In this document: piece after piece, positions 5,341 through 63,489 of the stretch
How positions within the stretch are numbered: position 1 is the stretch's first letter
How the letters are laid out: each line of letters begins with the position of its first letter
Source: a virus
Virus record (IMG/VR): IMGVR_UViG_3300007511_000012
Span: 1-64,000 of that record
Reading direction: 5' to 3' (one strand)
DNA length: 64,000 bases
Position numbers and translations under genes: made by a program
The notes under the pieces: generated by a model
What the model was told of the DNA's origin: nothing
The model's database searches: none
The model's input: the letters and a program-made list of their open reading frames with translations, nothing else

Positions 5341-5838
5341 ATGGCACGCAATAAATTTTCTCACAATAGCATGGGGAACCTTATAGAGGTTCGAAACCCT
5401 TCTAATCCCGGTCTTCCCGGAAATAGAAATGACGCTACGCTTAAAGAAGCTTTCGGATCTTCTCCGATCTATTCTCCTGGTGCAGACAATACTGTTAAGA
5501 AGCAGTTTGAAAATCTAGTAATGCAAGGTGTCCTTGTAGGGGAGGGCCGCAAAGGATCTGGTTTTGGATTTTCCATTTTTAATAGAGACTTTGTCGATGC
5601 TCCTGAAGTTGAGGGAGTTGAGAAAGATAACAGTGGAGCCGCCGTGGCAAGTCCATACGTTCCTAATGTTGCATCACCAAACTCTTCGGGACAAGTTGAA
5701 AAAGTTGTTGTTCCAAACCGACCTGCAGGCGGAGATTTTGTAGGTGACAGCTTAAGAGATCCAAAAAGCACCTCGGCAGATATTTCTAACGTGAAGATAG
5801 GTTCTTATGGTCTTGGCGTAAGCTCAAACCAGAGTTAA
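5341..5838 (+). CDS. Unknown virion-block protein
   Basis: The 165-residue protein is rich in Gly, Pro, Ser and Asn and shows no membrane segment, signal peptide or catalytic motif. It has a good ribosome site (TAGGAG) and its own late-promoter-like element, so it is probably made late. It is followed after only 9 bases by another unknown gene. A structural role is likely from context only. Confidence 0.65.
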   Translation: MARNKFSHNSMGNLIEVRNPSNPGLPGNRNDATLKEAFGSSPIYSPGADNTVKKQFENLVMQGVLVGEGRKGSGFGFSIFNRDFVDAPEVEGVEKDNSGAAVASPYVPNVASPNSSGQVEKVVVPNRPAGGDFVGDSLRDPKSTSADISNVKIGSYGLGVSSNQS

Positions 5839-47350: not shown

Positions 47351-48307
47351 ATGAAAACGCTACCACAGTTGTTCCAGATCCAGGACCAGTTCTCAGAACT
47401 ATTCCAAAAGAAGGATGACCTTTCCTTGGAGGAGAGGGAGCGGCTAACACAGGAGTTCTCTCTAGCACTCCACAGTGAGGTGTCAGCCCTGATCAGTGAG
47501 ATCAACTTTAAGAACCATCATCAGGATCGTAAGCAGGTGGTGGAGAACAGCATCCTTTTCGAGGGCGTTGATGTCTTCCGATATCTCTTAGCTATCTTAA
47601 ATCTCTGGGGCTTCAGTGCAGAGGATTTCTCGCAGGCTTTCGACGACAAGGAGAACTACCTCCAGGTCAAGTATGTCAAGAACGCGCAGAAGTGGCAAGG
47701 CCAACCGGTCATCCTCGTGGATGCCGACGATGTGATTGTGGAGTTCCGGAAGGGCTACAGTGAGTATCTTAATGCTATGGAAGGCATCGATGTTGACGTC
47801 AACTCCAAAGAATATTATTTCACCAACGGCATTCCAAAGGACCGCTACAATCCTGAGCAACTATTCCAGGATTTCATCGATCAGCGACGCCTCAGAGATT
47901 TAGAGCCTATCACGCCCACAATTCAAGCAATCAACGACTTGTACGACCAGGGCTATTGGATCCAGATTCTTACAGCTAGACCTGACTGGAACAAAACATG
48001 CCAGTATGACACTTATACTTGGCTTGAAAATAGCGGCCTAAAATTCCACAAAATTGACTTTTCGCCTGAGAAGATGATTTGGGCTGCAAATAGTGAGTAT
48101 TACGATTCTGAGTCGATTGTGTGCGCTATTGATGATAGTTCCAAGCACACTATGGAATATGCTAAGCATGGGATCAAAGTGGCATCGCCAGTCACGCCTT
48201 ATAACGAGGAGTTGCGAGGGGTAGAGAACGTCATTATGTTCGAGACAAAGCAAGAACTTGCTGATATCATTAAACAGTTCTCACTCCGGCGCATATTTAG
48301 CGTATGA
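47351..48307 (+). CDS. All-alpha NTP pyrophosphatase fused to HAD nucleotidase
   Basis: The 318-residue protein has two domains. Residues ~1-105 are helical with the acidic pyrophosphatase pattern (LHSEVSALISEINFKNHH, then EGVDVFRYLLAILNLWGF). Residues ~115-318 form a HAD phosphatase of 5'(3')-deoxyribonucleotidase type: VILVDADDVIVEF (motif I), ILTARPDWN (motif II), and VCAIDDSSKHT (motif IV). Together they could take an (deoxy)nucleoside triphosphate to monophosphate and then to nucleoside. There is no ribosome site before the ATG, and the 3' end overlaps the next HAD gene by 4 bases. Confidence 0.75.
   Translation: MKTLPQLFQIQDQFSELFQKKDDLSLEERERLTQEFSLALHSEVSALISEINFKNHHQDRKQVVENSILFEGVDVFRYLLAILNLWGFSAEDFSQAFDDKENYLQVKYVKNAQKWQGQPVILVDADDVIVEFRKGYSEYLNAMEGIDVDVNSKEYYFTNGIPKDRYNPEQLFQDFIDQRRLRDLEPITPTIQAINDLYDQGYWIQILTARPDWNKTCQYDTYTWLENSGLKFHKIDFSPEKMIWAANSEYYDSESIVCAIDDSSKHTMEYAKHGIKVASPVTPYNEELRGVENVIMFETKQELADIIKQFSLRRIFSV
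48292..48299 (+). promoter_or_regulatory. CATATTTA element ending 4 bases before a start codon
   Basis: An exact CATATTTA lies at the end of the fusion gene, immediately before ATG 48304. If it is a -10-type late element, the transcript would start at the ATG. It could also be chance. Confidence 0.3.
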
Positions 48308-48975
48308 TGCGTATTACAGTTGGACAATTACGAACCCTTATAAAGGAAGCAATGCAGGAGCTGAATCCTGATCTTGACCCAGATTGCAAGAGCTTTGCAG
48401 TATTTGATTTCGATGAGACGCTGGCACTGACGGATTCGAAAATTTTGATAACAGATGACCAGGGAAAAAAGATCCGATCTCTTACCCCCGCGCAGTATGC
48501 TCTTTATGTTCCCGAGCCGGGAGAGAACTTTGACTTTAGTGAATTTGAAATTGTCAAAGACGGTAAACCAACTGCTTTGATGGATGTTCTGCGAGATGTG
48601 GCTGCCTGCGGAACCACCGCCGCGGCCATTTTAACAGCTCGAGGCCCTAAATCACAAGACCCTATTAGAGAGTTTCTTGCAGACATGGGGGTAAAATTGC
48701 AGATAATCGACACTGTAAACACCTCAGATCCCCAAGCCAAAGCCCGGAAGATAAAAGGCTACGTTAGATCTTATAGCCCACAAGTCTTGCACTTTTTTGA
48801 GGATTCACCTAAGAATCTCGCTGCAGTAAAGAAGATGGCAGAGTCTGATCGTGAATTTGAGAACGTAGATGTGATTTTGCATAAGATGGTGGATGGCAAC
48901 AAGGTAGACGTCGAGCACGTCGTGTATAAAGGATTAAGCGCAATCGCAGCTCCTGAAGATTCAAAACACATTTGA
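48304..48975 (+). CDS. HAD-family phosphatase with LIKE-type N-terminus
   Basis: The 223-residue protein has HAD motifs AVFDFDETLALTDS (nucleophile Asp), AAILTARGPKS (Thr) and VLHFFEDSPKNLAAVKKM (acidic motif IV), resembling phosphatases of polynucleotide-kinase or sugar/nucleotide type. The first ~20 residues, MMRITVGQLRTLIKEAMQEL, resemble the N-terminus of the small protein at 4877 and contain an (L/I)-x-E site, so it may carry a removable targeting peptide. It overlaps the PPase-HAD fusion by 4 bases. The substrate is unknown. Confidence 0.75.
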   Translation: MMRITVGQLRTLIKEAMQELNPDLDPDCKSFAVFDFDETLALTDSKILITDDQGKKIRSLTPAQYALYVPEPGENFDFSEFEIVKDGKPTALMDVLRDVAACGTTAAAILTARGPKSQDPIREFLADMGVKLQIIDTVNTSDPQAKARKIKGYVRSYSPQVLHFFEDSPKNLAAVKKMAESDREFENVDVILHKMVDGNKVDVEHVVYKGLSAIAAPEDSKHI

Positions 48976-49029: not shown

Positions 49030-50013
49030 TTGCCACAGAACCTTAGTCTTGAGCCCGTTACCCTTCCTATGCCCCTTCGCTTCGGCGAGGAACCACAGAC
49101 CGAGTTTGTCAATGATCTTGACGCACTGCGTGTTGAGCTTGTCGATAGTCCAACAGCTGAGCAGATGCGTCATGTGGCATATCGCTACGTGAAGGCAACG
49201 TGGGCCGACGCGCCCGAAGATACTGATCCGATGAATGCAACTCAAAAAGAGTTGTCAGAAACTCTTGAGGACGTGATGCAGTTTCGAGCACTCCCAGCCG
49301 GAATGGAGGCTATGAGCTTTACATTCTTAATCGGCGGGATCGATCTGCAGACCGTCACTCACCTAATCCGTCACCGTGCCGGCACCTTTGCAGCACAATG
49401 CACCGGTGATCGCTGGCAGTCGCATAGCCGAGTACTGGCACCTGCTGCTGTTCAAAACAGCCCGGAAATCTATGGCCGCTGGAAGGACCACATTGAAGCA
49501 GGCAAGAAGCTTTACGCAGATATGATCGATACTAGGCAGATCAGCATTATGGACGCACGGACCATTCTGCCCCGTGCTATCGAAACCTTCTACTACGCGC
49601 GTTTCAACCTGAAAGATCTGATCGGTTTCATCCGCCAGCGATGTGACAAGCAGATCCAGCCCGCAGCAGACAACCTGATGGCTGCCAAGATGGCTCTGGA
49701 AGTTTGCAAGGTTATTCCTGAGGCTGCAGCCTGCATCGGTACTCGGACCCTTACTGCGCCTGCCATGCACTACGTTCGCAACATGCGCACTGGCACCGGA
49801 ACCAACCTCTACTGGCCTGATGCCGACACCGATGCACACATTGAGTATCACCCCAACGACACCATCTATCAAGCTGAGCGTGATGATGTTAATGGCACCA
49901 ACCCTCCGCCTGATGAGGCAGGTGAGAATAGTAAGTTTCGGCAGCACTGGAATGCGCTTCTCGCACAGATCAGTGACATCGAGATGGAATACAAGGATAA
50001 AATGGGTCGCTAA
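49030..50013 (+). CDS. thyX: Divergent flavin-dependent thymidylate synthase (ThyX-like)
   Basis: The 327-residue protein would methylate dUMP with folate and FAD. The ThyX core is visible: a helix FTFLIGGIDLQTVTHLIRHR, motif start RHR (114-116), then MDARTILPRAIETFYYARFN and a following QRCDKQIQ segment. The signature RHR-X7-S is altered: Cys124 stands where the active-site Ser usually is, followed by Thr125. The protein is longer than typical ThyX (about 220-250 residues) at both ends. It has a strong promoter and AAGGAGG. Altered substrate use is possible. Confidence 0.8.
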   Translation: MPQNLSLEPVTLPMPLRFGEEPQTEFVNDLDALRVELVDSPTAEQMRHVAYRYVKATWADAPEDTDPMNATQKELSETLEDVMQFRALPAGMEAMSFTFLIGGIDLQTVTHLIRHRAGTFAAQCTGDRWQSHSRVLAPAAVQNSPEIYGRWKDHIEAGKKLYADMIDTRQISIMDARTILPRAIETFYYARFNLKDLIGFIRQRCDKQIQPAADNLMAAKMALEVCKVIPEAAACIGTRTLTAPAMHYVRNMRTGTGTNLYWPDADTDAHIEYHPNDTIYQAERDDVNGTNPPPDEAGENSKFRQHWNALLAQISDIEMEYKDKMGR

Positions 50014-50714: not shown

Positions 50715-51152
50715 ATGAAGGTTTATATCGCATCCCCGTTCTTTAACCCCAAGCAAGTTGAGCAAGTTGAGTTTCTTAAAGAAGCCCTCACTGCAGCAGG
50801 TCATGAATACTTTAGCCCAAAGGATTTCTTTGTGCTCAAGCCTAATGCTACGCAAGAGGATCGCACACGTATCTTTGATGTGAACTGCGAGAAGATCCAG
50901 TGGGCTGACTTTGTCCTGTGCAACACGGAAGCCAAGGATCTTGGCACTATTTGGGAGGCAGGTTATGCTTACGGCATCGAAAAGCCGGTCGTCTTCTTTG
51001 CTGAGGGCTTGCCCGATGGTAAGTTTAACGTGATGCTTAGTGAAGCCGGCAAGTCAGTCAACACCACGCGTGAGCAGATGCAAGACTACCTTAGTCGTGT
51101 TTCCGACGCAGGGGAGCTCATCTTCGAACAATATTCAGGATTTACTCAGTAG
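50715..51152 (+). CDS. Nucleoside 2-deoxyribosyltransferase-like protein
   Basis: The 145-residue protein matches the family: MKVYIASPFFNPKQVEQVEF (start), an acidic residue in DVNCEKIQWADFVLCNTE, and DLGTIWEAGYAYGIEKPVV with the catalytic Glu region. It moves deoxyribose between bases, or cleaves nucleotides, in nucleotide salvage. The start is ATG 50715 after GAGAGGA. The tiny lipoprotein gene begins at the G of its stop codon. It probably belongs to the nucleotide-metabolism set of this region. Confidence 0.85.
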   Translation: MKVYIASPFFNPKQVEQVEFLKEALTAAGHEYFSPKDFFVLKPNATQEDRTRIFDVNCEKIQWADFVLCNTEAKDLGTIWEAGYAYGIEKPVVFFAEGLPDGKFNVMLSEAGKSVNTTREQMQDYLSRVSDAGELIFEQYSGFTQ

Positions 51153-58516: not shown

Positions 58517-61500
58517 GTGTCATTTGACGATTTCAAGAAACCTAATCGATTCGTAGGCATGCACGGCCACGATGGTTATTCCACTTACGATGGCCTAGGA
58601 TACCCAGCAGATCACCTGGACTTTGTCTTGGAGAACGGCATGGATGCCCTCTCTATTACCAACCACGGTAACTGCAACTCCCTCCCTTTCCTCTGGAAGC
58701 ACGGCGAGAAACTACGCAAGCAAGGTCGAAATGTTAGAACCATCTCAGGATGTGAGTTCTATTTTGTTCCATCGCTTAAGGAGTGGGAGAAGCAGTATCA
58801 AAACCATCGAGATCGAGTAAAGGCGGAACGGGATGCTAAAAAGCAAGAAGCCCTATCTAAGATCGATGTCAATAAAGATGCCGAGGATGATGAGGCTCAG
58901 GGGGGCCACGTTATTGAGGATGAGGAAGCCAGCAAGACTTACGACCCCGACGCCTTGGATTGGAAGCGCCGGTATCACTTAGTTGTCACAGCGCGGAACT
59001 TGACCGGCCTGCAAAACCTCTTCAGGTTAATCAAGCGCTCGTACAAGGAAGGGTTTTATCGGTTTCCACGCATTGACTTTGAAATGTTGAAGGAGCACGG
59101 GGAAGGGCTCCAGGTGTCGTCTGCCTGTCTGGCAGGCATCGCCACTGGAACCGTCTTTAAGGGGCAGGCTCACAAGAAAGATTTTGAGGAGATCATGCGG
59201 GATCTCGGTAATCTCACAGATCGCTTTCATGATGCGCTAAGTCCGGATCGTTTCTTCTGGGAGATCCAGTTCAACTCCTTGGACGCACAACACACCACAA
59301 ATCACTACCTGCTAGAGATGGCCAAACGCCACAACCTTCCTCTCATCGCCACCGCAGACAGTCACTATCCACGACCGGACCTGTGGGAAGCCCGGGAGCT
59401 CTACAAGAAGCTCGGCTGGATGCGTGATAAGCCCACCCCTCTCCCCACCTTCGACGAGCTCAAGTGTGAGCTTTATCCCAAGAACGCGGAACAGATGTGG
59501 GAGGAGTACGGAAGGCATTACACTCAGCACGACTTCTACAATGGCACCGAAGACATGGTCCGGCAAGCAATCGAGCGTACACATGACCTGACCTGGAACG
59601 AGTTCGAGGACGTCTGGATCGACAGCAAAGCCAAGCTGCCTAACTACGCCAATCCCCAGCGTTCACACGCGTGCTATCCCGAGCCGCCTGAGGACACCCC
59701 GTTCCAGCAGCTAGCTAAGCTGGTCAAGGCGGCGATGATCCGCGAGGGCCTAGGTGACAAGCCCGAGTACGTCGCGCGTGTCAAGGAGGAGATGGACGAC
59801 ATCAAGTTCCTGGGCTTCGAGAACTACTTCCTGACCATGTATGACGTGTTCCATCTCGCAGAGAAGAAGACGCTGTTCGGGCCGGCCCGTGGTTCGGGTG
59901 GTGGCTCGCTGGTCAACTACCTGCTGGGCATCACGCAGATCGACCCCCTCCCGTTTGGCCTGCTGTGGTCGCGCTTCCTGGGCCGCCACCGCACGTCCTG
60001 GCCTGACATCGACTCTGACGCGGGAGACCGCGACGCGCTGATCGATGCAGCTCGAGTCCTCTTTGGAGAGGATGCGGTCATTCCCGTGTCCAACTTCAAC
60101 ACGCTGAAACTCAAGTCCATCGTTAAGGATGTGGCCAAGTTCTACCAGATCGACTTCGCCGAAGTGAACCGGATCACTGGTCCCCTCCAGGGTGAGGTGG
60201 AACCCTTCGCCCGAGATGCCAACACCGAGAAGTCCGTCTTTGTGCTCAAGCACGACGACTGTATGAAGTACTCCGATAACTACCGGACCTTTATGGAGAA
60301 GTATCCGCACGTGGAGAAGCACGTGAGCACGTTGTTTATGGAACAACGAGCCATCGGCCGACATGCTGGGGGCGTCCTCATCGCTGATGAGAATGAGTTA
60401 GCCGAGACCATGCCCCTGATCGGTGTGCGTGGTGAGCTCCAGACCCCCTGGACCGAGGGTATGAACTTCCGGAACCTGGAAGACAACGGTTTCATCAAGT
60501 TCGACTTCCTCGGCCTAACCCTAATGAAGGATGTGGAGAACTGCATCAAGCGCGTCCTGCGGACGCCTGACAATCCTCAGCCTAGCTTTGCGCAGATTAA
60601 AGAGTATTTTGACGAGCATCTTAACTGCCGATATGTCAAGCAGGATGACCCTAAGGTGTGGGAGCACTCCTATCACCATCAGAATTTCGCCCCGGGCCTC
60701 TTTCAGTTTACGGCTCAGGGAGCTCGCAACTTCTGTCAGCAGGCTAAACCCGATAACATTGAGGAACTAGCGGCCATTACTGCTATCTATCGCCCGGGCC
60801 CACTCAAGGCTAATGTCCACATCAAGTACGTGGAAGCCAAGAACGACCGGGACAACATTGTCTACGACCACCCCGTGATCGAGCGCGTCCTCGGCCCCAC
60901 CTGCGGTTTCATCACCTTTCAGGAGCAGTTCATGACCCTGGCAGTCGAGCTCGCAGGGTTTACTCCCGGTGAGTCTGACAAGATGCGTAAGACGCTGGTG
61001 AAGAAGTCCTTAGACACCATCGGTAAGAAGGGTTCCGAACGTGACCAGCTGCGTAAGCAATTCGTGGAAGGTGCTCAACGCCTCCATGACCTAGATCCCA
61101 AGATCACTCACGCGCTTTTCGATAAGATCGAGTTCTTCTCCCTTTATGGTTTCAATAAGTCGCACGCCGTGGCTTACGCCATCGATAGCTACTACGCCGC
61201 CTGGCTCTACACCTACCATCCCAAGGAGTGGATCGCTACTGTGCTCCAGTCAGAGAACAACTCCCCTAACGGTCTGGCTAAGACCATCCGGGAGGTCAAG
61301 GTCCTGGGTTACAAGTTTGCACCATCGGATATCAACTACTCCGGTGAGGAGTGGGATTATAATCCTGAGCGAAAAGCCTTTGTACCTCCCCTGTCTTCTA
61401 TTAAAGGTGTTGGTGGTAAAGCGATGGAGGAGATCATCGAGCATCGTCCTTTCCGCAATCTACGCGAGCTCTTCTTTAATGAGGAGGGTAAGTGGCGTCA

Positions 61501-62407
61501 CTCCAAGGTAAATAAGACCTGCTTCGGTGCGCTCTGTCAGATTGAGGCTTTCACCTCGCTGCAGGAGTTCCAAGACGGTGACCTTGACAACCATCGCCAG
61601 CTCTACCACTTGATCGTTGATAACTACGAGCAGATCCGAAAGTCGGATGAAGGTAAGAAGAAGTGGTTGGATAAGCTAGAAGCCATCGGTGACAAGAACC
61701 GCGAGGAGGTCGATAAGATCATCTCCGTCTACACCAAGACCAAGATGCCTGAGATGGAGGAAGCCGCTCGATCTCTCGTCCTTGATGCTAATGTGATGGA
61801 CTGGACTTACATCGATCACTTAGTAGATTCCCTCAAGACTATCGAGCACCCTAAACCTCGACGACAGCTCCAGATCGATCGCTGCTTCGAACGGATTGCA
61901 AAGAACGGCGATCGTCGTGAAAAGATCCTTGAGCGCATCGATGCTTTCTTCGATCTAGACGAGGCAATGGGTTCTGTTGCGCACATTGAAGACTGGTCGC
62001 GTGATGAGAAGATTCGTCTCTACCAGGAGATCACGTCTGCTATCAATAATGCGTTGGTCTTTCCTGCCGAGGTGATGAAGCGAATCACCAAGACTGATAT
62101 GCCCTCTGTCTGTGAGATCCCTGGCGGGGAGAAGGCTGTTGCTTGGGGTTGCGCCGCCGAGATCCAGAAGAAGACCACCAAGAAGGGTAAAGAGTTCTAT
62201 CGCCTTCGAATGATCGATGACCAGAACAGATCTTGCTGGCTTCGAGTATGGGGTAAGTTCTTCGAGTGGGGTGAGGAGCGCGGACAAAAGCTCTACTACG
62301 AACCACCCGATTTCTCCTACTGGTTGATGGAGGTGGATGTAGATCCTAACTGGGGCGCTTCCACCGCAGCCTTTAAGATGCGCAGGATCCCCCTAGCCGA
62401 TGATTAA
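58517..62407 (+). CDS. dnaE: DNA polymerase III alpha subunit (DnaE-type, family C)
   Basis: The 1296-residue protein is a bacterial-type replicative polymerase. Domains in order are a PHP domain (MHGHDGYSTYDG, SITNHGN) with a charged insert near residues 100-150 and, in its later part, FIATADSHYP-like metal residues. The catalytic palm has GPARGSGGGSLVNYLLG, PDIDSD (496-501) and KFDFLGLTLMK (third Asp). Fingers, helix-hairpin-helix GKAMEEIIEHRPF and a C-terminal OB fold (VAWGCAAEIQKKTTKKG) follow. It starts at GTG 58517. The middle of the gene (about 59.3-61.2 kb) is visibly richer in G+C than neighbouring genes. It may be the main replicase, beside the family A enzyme. Confidence 0.92.
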   Translation: MSFDDFKKPNRFVGMHGHDGYSTYDGLGYPADHLDFVLENGMDALSITNHGNCNSLPFLWKHGEKLRKQGRNVRTISGCEFYFVPSLKEWEKQYQNHRDRVKAERDAKKQEALSKIDVNKDAEDDEAQGGHVIEDEEASKTYDPDALDWKRRYHLVVTARNLTGLQNLFRLIKRSYKEGFYRFPRIDFEMLKEHGEGLQVSSACLAGIATGTVFKGQAHKKDFEEIMRDLGNLTDRFHDALSPDRFFWEIQFNSLDAQHTTNHYLLEMAKRHNLPLIATADSHYPRPDLWEARELYKKLGWMRDKPTPLPTFDELKCELYPKNAEQMWEEYGRHYTQHDFYNGTEDMVRQAIERTHDLTWNEFEDVWIDSKAKLPNYANPQRSHACYPEPPEDTPFQQLAKLVKAAMIREGLGDKPEYVARVKEEMDDIKFLGFENYFLTMYDVFHLAEKKTLFGPARGSGGGSLVNYLLGITQIDPLPFGLLWSRFLGRHRTSWPDIDSDAGDRDALIDAARVLFGEDAVIPVSNFNTLKLKSIVKDVAKFYQIDFAEVNRITGPLQGEVEPFARDANTEKSVFVLKHDDCMKYSDNYRTFMEKYPHVEKHVSTLFMEQRAIGRHAGGVLIADENELAETMPLIGVRGELQTPWTEGMNFRNLEDNGFIKFDFLGLTLMKDVENCIKRVLRTPDNPQPSFAQIKEYFDEHLNCRYVKQDDPKVWEHSYHHQNFAPGLFQFTAQGARNFCQQAKPDNIEELAAITAIYRPGPLKANVHIKYVEAKNDRDNIVYDHPVIERVLGPTCGFITFQEQFMTLAVELAGFTPGESDKMRKTLVKKSLDTIGKKGSERDQLRKQFVEGAQRLHDLDPKITHALFDKIEFFSLYGFNKSHAVAYAIDSYYAAWLYTYHPKEWIATVLQSENNSPNGLAKTIREVKVLGYKFAPSDINYSGEEWDYNPERKAFVPPLSSIKGVGGKAMEEIIEHRPFRNLRELFFNEEGKWRHSKVNKTCFGALCQIEAFTSLQEFQDGDLDNHRQLYHLIVDNYEQIRKSDEGKKKWLDKLEAIGDKNREEVDKIISVYTKTKMPEMEEAARSLVLDANVMDWTYIDHLVDSLKTIEHPKPRRQLQIDRCFERIAKNGDRREKILERIDAFFDLDEAMGSVAHIEDWSRDEKIRLYQEITSAINNALVFPAEVMKRITKTDMPSVCEIPGGEKAVAWGCAAEIQKKTTKKGKEFYRLRMIDDQNRSCWLRVWGKFFEWGEERGQKLYYEPPDFSYWLMEVDVDPNWGASTAAFKMRRIPLADD

Positions 62408-62603
62408 TCCGGGACAACTTGTCAGAATCACAAAGACAGCTGTGCAGGACAGTCGCCATCTAAATAAGTTGGGTGTCTTGCTGAAGGATAATGGTGTGGA
62501 CGATTGTGGCATTCCAGAAGTATATATTTTAGTCGATGGTGATAGAATATGGGTATACCCAGACGGATATGAGGTGATTGATGATCAAGTTTCCGATCTC
62601 TAA
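62400..62603 (+). CDS. Small SH3/KOW-like protein 3
   Basis: The 67-residue protein starts inside the DnaE stop region. INPGQLVRITKTAV, KLGVLLKDNG, VYILVDGDRIWVYP and YEVIDD follow the same short-barrel pattern as the two upstream of DnaE. Its end overlaps the kinase fusion gene, so all three genes are coupled. Function is unknown. Confidence 0.6.
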   Translation: MINPGQLVRITKTAVQDSRHLNKLGVLLKDNGVDDCGIPEVYILVDGDRIWVYPDGYEVIDDQVSDL

Positions 62604-63489
62604 GGTCGTTCTAGAGGGTTGCGACCTAAGTGGCAAGACCTCGCTCTATAACTCCATTCATAAGCGATCTGGATTCCGATGGAACATTGATGATAGGTCA
62701 TCTTTGTCAATGTGCGTCTACGCTAATCAATATGATCGGGATGATTACTACCTTAGAAAGAACCTCACGATGGAGCTATCTAACCTGAACAATCACTTTG
62801 TTCTTCTCCATCCTGACCTGGACGTGATTCATAACAGATATCTCGACCGAGGAGATGAGTTCCAGGATGTCGACTCTCTGATCGACCTGCACACAAGGTT
62901 CAGCAAGGAGTTTGAAAAGATCTGCATGTTACCTAACGTTCATGCCTTCACTTCAGGGACGCTGAAGGACCAGGCCGATCGATTGATGAGTAACTTCTCT
63001 GACTGGGAAGCAAGGACACCTGAACAGATCGGTCGTTTGGCCTATGAGTTCGCCAAGTTCAGCCCGAACCGTGAGTGCACAACGATGCAGTTCCACTTCT
63101 ACGATGACGGAACCTTTGAGGAGGTGAATGACAATATTGAATTTACTCCTGGCGAGGAAGTGTACTACGCTCGAATCAGAGGCAAACTGATCGGAAAGAT
63201 AGAAGATGAGCTTCGCGGCCGAAACCCTTATAAGCGCAAGGAGACAGACCAGTCACGAAGGTTTGTGTTCTCCGGAGAGGAATGCATCTCCTTCATCCAG
63301 GTTCTCGTTCGGGATGGTTTGATGGATGTCCACGCTGTATTTCGAAGTTCTGATACAGAGCGCAAGACAGCCACCGACATTCAGCTAATCCATTACCTAG
63401 GCAGAGAGGCCTTTAGGTTGCTCAGATTGAACCCAGATGAATATAAAGTTCGCTTCCGGTTTAACATAAACAGTGCTCACGTACTTTAA
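62581..63489 (+). CDS. P-loop deoxynucleotide-kinase-like domain fused to ThyA/dCMP-hydroxymethylase-like domain
   Basis: The 302-residue protein starts at ATG 62581 after GAGGTG (TTG 62578 possible). Residues ~1-135 look like a thymidylate-kinase-type domain: VVLEGCDLSGKTS (Walker A) and NRYLDRGDEF. Residues ~165-302 align with thymidylate synthase: SRRF (phosphate-binding arginines, ~225-228), Cys235 in EECISFIQVLVRDG where ThyA has its nucleophile, RSSD (255-258), Asp266 where ThyA has the Asn that reads uracil, and a terminal SAHVL (ThyA THLY). The Asn-to-Asp change is the dCMP-specifying feature of T4 gp42. The domain ends right after this motif, shorter than ThyA. A role in modified-nucleotide synthesis is inferred. 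Confidence 0.7.
   Translation: MIKFPISKVVLEGCDLSGKTSLYNSIHKRSGFRWNIDDRSSLSMCVYANQYDRDDYYLRKNLTMELSNLNNHFVLLHPDLDVIHNRYLDRGDEFQDVDSLIDLHTRFSKEFEKICMLPNVHAFTSGTLKDQADRLMSNFSDWEARTPEQIGRLAYEFAKFSPNRECTTMQFHFYDDGTFEEVNDNIEFTPGEEVYYARIRGKLIGKIEDELRGRNPYKRKETDQSRRFVFSGEECISFIQVLVRDGLMDVHAVFRSSDTERKTATDIQLIHYLGREAFRLLRLNPDEYKVRFRFNINSAHVL

Follow-up and report, generated by a model that had tools for sequence, protein, structure and literature searches.

Which reaction might be carried out by a viral protein in which a nucleotide kinase is fused to a domain resembling thymidylate synthase (TS)? This question is raised by a gene at positions 62581 to 63489 of a stretch of viral DNA with a length of 64,000 nucleotides (the window), which belongs to a virus record of 78,151 bases. 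Members of the TS superfamily produce modified pyrimidines by which phage DNA is shielded, and the original prediction for this locus proposed such a role for a thymidylate kinase-like protein joined to a ThyA-like region with a dCMP-type aspartate, with the hydroxymethylase gp42 of phage T4 as the model.

The fusion gene and its neighborhood

The reading frame on the plus strand is uninterrupted from a TTG at 62578 or an ATG at 62581 until the stop codon whose last base is 63489. The TTG is a possible start, but the ATG is favored because a GAGG sequence is located six bases upstream (62571-62574). The resulting protein of 302 aa, whose residues are counted here from the N-terminus MIKF, was found in full length on four IMG/VR contigs in a first search and later on further ones. 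Its N-terminal part (approximately residues 1-134; 62581-62982) is a putative P-loop nucleoside monophosphate kinase domain with the Walker A motif EGCDLSGKTS (E12 to S21; 62614-62643), which is aligned among the relatives. The C-terminal part (approximately residues 135-302; 62983-63486), called the C-domain in the following, resembles a minimal TS.

A search of viral contigs for relatives identified the fusion protein on 14 public contigs, corresponding to seven distinct sequences (the window sequence, identical to L001 and L002; L003 = L004; L016 = L017 = L018 = L020; L021; L022 = L024 = L025; L023; L019). Kinase and C-domain are encoded in one frame on 13 of these contigs. L019 (contig IMGVR_UViG_3300002242_000001) carries a frameshift near position 5510, and the kinase part is located in the other frame just upstream; this may reflect either a faulty assembly or a genuine interruption of the gene. 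A tblastn search of 50,697 phage records revealed no close relative of the fusion at E 1e-5, and two scans of GTDB genome contigs with short peptide patterns, a method blind to distant homologues, yielded no relatives. Such a fusion is named nowhere in the titles and abstract openings covered by a literature search.

The upstream neighbor on the same strand encodes a DnaE-type DNA polymerase III alpha subunit (58517-62407) and is followed by a plus-strand ORF of 67 aa (62400-62603) without a Pfam match, both being present in all eight loci checked. The gene order DnaE, 67-aa ORF, fusion and an epimerase-like gene is likewise kept in 8/8 of them. An identical fusion gene is located at position 177,050 of a record of 235,681 bases (G001). 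Seven of eight sampled window positions matched this record at the single offset 114,472, the first 40 bases of the window being unmatched. DnaE, ThyX, thymidine kinase, dCMP deaminase, IMPDH and a protein of the tubulin family are encoded in G001 or in its window part, and we infer that the window and G001 stem from a large tailed (jumbo) phage.

The N-terminal kinase domain

The profile phrog_761 ("thymidylate kinase") matches six of the seven distinct members with a best E of 1.6e-8, the seventh being the truncated L019. The profile of the kinase domain also finds the structure of YorR (PDB 2axp) with an E of 5e-4, and Pfam Thymidylate_kin gave an E of 0.046, which is under the family cut-off. 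YorR of SPbeta (PDB 2axp, 3kb2) and the phage thymidylate kinases of phrog_761 are similar to the kinase of the fusion in profile, including the RGDE stretch. To our knowledge YorR has no TS domain, and the fusion differs from it in having one.

The best phage relative of the kinase is gp15 of the Pelagibacter phage HTVC119P, with a tblastn E of 0.02 for the L022 kinase as query, a pairwise BLASTP E of 6e-10 and an hhalign score of 52.7, where 100 shuffles reached at most 21.8. T4 gp1, the kinase of Rhizobium phage P10VF and E. coli Tmk were rejected as relatives, their matches covering the P-loop only and scoring at or slightly above the shuffles. The TMK of Gordonia phage Phendrix was dropped as well (score 35.6, again P-loop only).

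Homology of the C-domain to thymidylate synthases

A profile of the six distinct C-domains was aligned by hhalign with ten phage TS-like proteins, a set seeded with PTm1, which as the top tblastn hit had an E of no better than 0.5. The score was 47.8 (E 1.1e-6, as a single comparison), while the best of 200 column shuffles reached 29.5 and the reversed profile 13.1. Only the part from the SRR motif onward matches alone, and the preceding 90 columns score 12.6, which equals noise; hhalign and MAFFT carry the match back to the helix before SRR (Y-x2-RI...EL). None of the seven members was matched by the Pfam TS family in hmmscan, PF00303 was found in none of 15 records, and the C-domain profile gave 23 matches among PDB sequences, all of them weak and unrelated and none a TS. 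A profile match to the TS superfamily was obtained with the phage TS-like proteins but not in the Pfam or PDB sequence searches.

In single-sequence tblastn searches of the phage records, no hit was obtained with the whole fusion at 1e-5, and at a limit of 10 the L003 protein retrieved PTm1 (E 0.5). The C-domains of L022 and L019 found nothing better than E 2, the best hits of L019 being annotated TS proteins. A match to MT835571 (E 2) was discarded, as it falls on an unrelated-looking ORF. The C-domain comprises 168 aa, whereas ThyA takes 209 residues to the same histidine, about 40 more. From these profile matches we regard it as nearly certain that a nucleotide kinase and a TS-superfamily domain are combined in one protein; the fusion proposed originally is borne out by the kinase profiles and by an hhalign score of the C-domain above 200/200 column shuffles.

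Active-site residues

The correspondence of active-site residues was taken from a MAFFT alignment of 30 sequences. At eight of 13 ThyA positions checked, the fusion has the same residue or the one of the dCMP-type enzymes. R126 and R127 correspond to R226 and R227 in the SRR motif (residues 225-227; 63253-63261), the phosphate-binding arginines in TS. C146, the nucleophile, corresponds to Cys235 (63283-63285; gp42 C148). R166, S167 and D169 are R255, S256 and D258 of the RSSD motif (R255-S256-S257-D258; 63343-63354). H207 is His300 (63478-63480), within A299-H300-V301-L302 and two residues from the end of the chain. N177, the position that determines base specificity, is replaced by Asp266 (63376-63378), the residue of gp42 (D179). 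In addition, Q165 corresponds to Phe254 and Y209 to Leu302, and ThyA Glu58, Trp80 and Trp83 have no aligned partner in any of the five fusion rows. The SRR, Cys235, RSSD and terminal AH-V-L motifs thus line up with ThyA as had been proposed, Cys235 and Asp266 fall on the active site, and the dCMP-type aspartate is invariant.

All ten signature positions tested, among them Cys235, Asp266 and the R, S and D of RSSD, are invariant in the six distinct C-domain rows, in which 80 of 169 columns are invariant overall. This bears on the explanation that the protein is an ordinary phage TMP kinase with a decaying relic of TS. Such a relic would be in line with the TMP-kinase-like family of the kinase and with the frameshift in the kinase part on one contig. 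Moreover, the thymidylate kinase family PF02223 is absent from 15/15 records, so the fusion may supply the TMP-kinase step; absences among these records, which are mostly fragments, count weakly. However, the C-domain shows a conservation (58-82% identity to the window sequence) similar to that of the entire protein (58-79%), and its signature residues do not vary, which makes a relic quite improbable.

Comparison with gp42 and AfhB-type proteins

A folate-dependent dCMP hydroxymethylase was the specific model of the original prediction. T4 gp42 shares with the fusion the positions of Cys148, Asp179, Arg123, Arg124, Asp171 and His216, so that Cys235 and Asp266 align with C148 and D179, and D258 with D171. 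According to PMC6400193, the gp42 mutants D179N and C148S produce negligible 5-hydroxymethyl-dCMP. On the other hand, the catalytic Glu60 and the folate-side Trp82 of gp42 have no aligned residue in 5/5 fusion rows, and the profile score of the gp42 group lies inside the range of its shuffles (19.7 against a maximum of 20.1 for the SRR-onward part). Because no residue aligns with ThyA Glu58, Trp80 or Trp83, folate-dependent hydroxymethylation is unlikely. We judge a gp42-like enzyme improbable, and neither gp42 as a model nor a hydroxymethyl product was upheld.

Four TS groups, of eight, six, six and five sequences, were selected by hand from those fetched; the AfhB-type group includes proteins of PTm1, Mosigvirus and Thanatos. 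With the full domain, the profile scores were 48.5 for the AfhB-type, 29.3 for the mixed Asp-type, 26.0 for the ThyA and 19.9 for the gp42 group. The SRR-onward part gave 47.0, 26.6 and 25.3 for the first three groups, with maxima of 23.6, 21.7 and 22.3 in 100 shuffles each. The top rank of the AfhB-type group carries a selection bias, since the set was seeded from the best tblastn hit. A rerun of the SRR-onward part without PTm1 and L084 addresses this bias partly, and the AfhB-type group was still first with 34.5 against 26.6, 25.3 and 19.7. Among individual proteins, PTm1 (44.2) and Acinetobacter phage AC4 (35.6) scored highest, and three AfhB-labelled sequences (L110, L111 and L116) scored 11-15, which is noise-like. 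In tblastn searches of the 235-kb phage, the PTm1 protein reaches the C-domain with an E of 0.001, whereas T4 gp42 and E. coli ThyA gave no match at this value. Five genes from the PTm1 neighborhood were queried as well, and at E 1e-3 none of them found a homologue in this phage.

Alignments were assembled from 35 loci, of which 29 were used for a profile and 26 for a model, each together with six fusion rows; the loci left out were near-duplicates or were omitted for brevity. The profile matches PDB 9iqu and 9iqc with an E of about 4e-111 and T4 gp42 with 1.7e-13, which identifies the set as the AfhB group. Details of AfhB were taken from the PDB titles ("phage HY126 dCMP hydroxylase-AfhB"; "Monooxygenase dependent on riboflavin with dCMP and FAD") and from PMC13390438, according to which the 5-hydroxy-dCMP synthase of Mosigvirus belongs to the TS superfamily and is homologous to hydroxymethyl-dCMP synthase. 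For phage Thanatos, PMC12838424 reports a deoxypentose attached directly to cytosine; TH1_062 of Thanatos presumably corresponds to the AfhB-type protein taken from Thanatos-2.

The AfhB group is the one most similar to the fusion by profile score and Foldseek rank, and SRR, Cys, RS, Asp and SAH are common to most of its members. At the Glu58 column all eight AfhB-type rows have Phe, and the Trp80 column contains no Trp in any of them; the loss of folate-side residues is therefore common to the fusion and this group and would agree with chemistry independent of folate. Six of the eight rows contain a Glu two residues ahead of the Glu58 column, which may be a shifted equivalent as judged from the alignment. 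The two types differ in length, five T4-like members translated having 225-238 aa compared with 168 aa of the C-domain, which is reduced both ahead of SRR and in the interval from SRR to Cys. They differ further in the fused kinase and at the ThyA D169 position, where all eight AfhB-type rows have Asn and all five fusion rows Asp258. In a tree of an 88-column core the fusion stands apart from all groups on a very long branch, and for this reason it is not filed as a member of the AfhB or 5-hydroxy-dCMP synthase group. The TS-like proteins of Rhizobium phage P10VF (L052) and Sphingomonas phage PAU (L053) agree with the AfhB-type rows in carrying Phe in the Glu58 column and Asn at D169, so the AfhB-type class may reach beyond T4-like phages.

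Structure prediction

An AF2 prediction from two sequences only gave no usable model (pLDDT 33.9). With the mixed alignment of six fusion rows and 26 AfhB-type rows trimmed to match, the C-domain was modeled with a pLDDT of 78.3 and a pTM of 0.79. Foldseek searches with this model were led by 9iqu (2.3e-5) and 9iqc (9.4e-5), followed by ThyA and T4 dCMP hydroxymethylase structures at about 2e-3. Among the matches listed by VIA-align, ThyA, AfhB and MilA were tied at middling Z scores of 8.0-8.9 (rmsd 3.3-4.0 over 131-140 residues). The prediction for residues 135-302 thus yielded TS-fold matches, but these arise partly by construction because the alignment contained AfhB-type sequences, and the model should be read as compatible with a TS fold rather than as independent proof. 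A 151-aa protein of phage S-CBWM1, the top structural match in BFVD, was dropped since no sequence match was found in that phage.

ThyX and other nucleotide-related genes

The presence of a separate ThyX had been regarded as an argument against a role of the fusion in dTMP synthesis. A ThyX is indeed encoded in the window (49030-50013), but the argument is weak because its motif is altered to RHRAGTFAAQCTGDR, the canonical one being RHRxxSxNxxS, and because contig G004 has a canonical ThyX in addition to a divergent form (3.9e-50 versus 2.6e-22). The forms aligned from five other contigs resemble that of the window, and ThyX of Geobacillus phage GR1 is 50% identical to it and carries the motif RHRTFSFSAQCTGDR. 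The divergent ThyX possibly has another product, and another dTMP enzyme might then be needed. A bifunctional protein for synthesis and phosphorylation of dTMP would match this, as well as the pairing of TS-like and TMP-kinase-like domains. Nevertheless, the residue at ThyA position 177 is Asp and not Asn, and the folate-side residues have no aligned counterpart; we consider dTMP synthesis very improbable.

A dCMP deaminase was detected in 11 of the 15 records. The window also encodes a nucleoside deoxyribosyltransferase (50715-51152; PF05014, 1.5e-16), of which phage GR1 has a homologue with 41% identity. A dUTPase_2/MazG-like domain fused to an NT5C-like HAD phosphatase is encoded at 47351-48307, and a second phosphatase-like protein follows directly (48304-48975).

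Proposed function

We consider catalysis on a dCMP-type nucleotide slightly more likely than not. Our preferred, though tentative, reading is a bifunctional enzyme that modifies C5 of such a nucleotide, most likely by hydroxylation, and carries a kinase for phosphorylation; hydroxylation as the chemistry itself is put forward with more reserve. Of the original prediction, the nucleotide-modification role holds as the likeliest reading, next to the fusion of kinase and TS-superfamily domain, the Cys nucleophile and the dCMP-type Asp.

In TS the SRR arginines serve the active site of the other subunit, and the C-domain, as a putative minimal TS-fold unit, is for this reason probably dimeric. It would bind a cytosine deoxynucleotide monophosphate, Asp266 would pair with the base and protonate it, and Cys235 would attack C6, by which C5 would be activated. 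C5 would then be modified without methylene-folate, 5-hydroxy-dCMP as formed by AfhB being the likeliest product. Since the C-domain is short and lacks aligned cofactor-side residues, flavin binding is doubtful too. The N-terminal kinase would add a further phosphate to this product to give the diphosphate, as T4 gp1 does for hydroxymethyl-dCMP. It is conceivable, and proposed here with due caution, that the protein represents a single-chain "modify and phosphorylate" enzyme with an unusually small TS fold and dCMP-type Cys-adduct catalysis without the folate-side residues, in which the fused kinase would commit the modified cytosine nucleotide to DNA synthesis. If it works without the folate side, it would show how little of the TS fold Cys-adduct chemistry at C5 needs. 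The protein also marks a jumbo-phage lineage as worth testing for modified cytosine in its DNA.

The missing counterparts of Glu58, Trp80 and Trp83, and the fact that the part before SRR does not match alone, would also agree with the main alternative, a TS-fold domain without cofactor chemistry, which recognizes a dCMP-type nucleotide, modified or not, and makes the kinase specific for it. The modified base would then come from a different enzyme, such as the divergent ThyX; ThyX occurs in nine of the 15 records, and in all six records aligned it is of the divergent form. Yet neither Cys235 nor either of the two Asp residues varies among the six distinct C-domains, a constancy that would be needless for pure binding, and we regard a role in recognition alone as somewhat unlikely.

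Related arrangements in other phages and further genes

The gp15-gp16 gene pair of HTVC119P (L145, 1498-2782) is an unfused equivalent of the fusion: the homologous kinase gene is followed by an overlapping gene for an Asp-type TS protein. In contrast to the fusion these are two genes, and gp16 is of full length with a longer N-terminal half. Annotated plainly as thymidylate synthase, gp16 has an Asp at the Asn177 position as seen by eye (VYDV); its best scores are with other Asp-type TS groups, and it matches the C-domain weakly (24.0). Phages P10VF and Phendrix have a comparable arrangement, in which a single gene separates the TS-like gene from an annotated kinase gene upstream of it. In T4 the second step is the task of gp1, whose annotation gives dTMP, dGMP and HMdCMP as substrates. 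The fusion would unite both steps, C5 modification and phosphorylation, so that one gene would name the whole two-step pathway.

Outside the window part, 35 proteins scanned from the 34-68 kb region of G001 (L070-L072) included several glycosyltransferases, NeuB, a carbamoyltransferase and enzymes of the GDP-mannose dehydratase type. In the regions 1-34 kb and 200-235 kb (L069-L070, L079-L081), PrkA, SpoVR, DUF444, an Fpg-type glycosylase, Cpn60, DnaJ and peptidases of the families M41 and M50 were identified.
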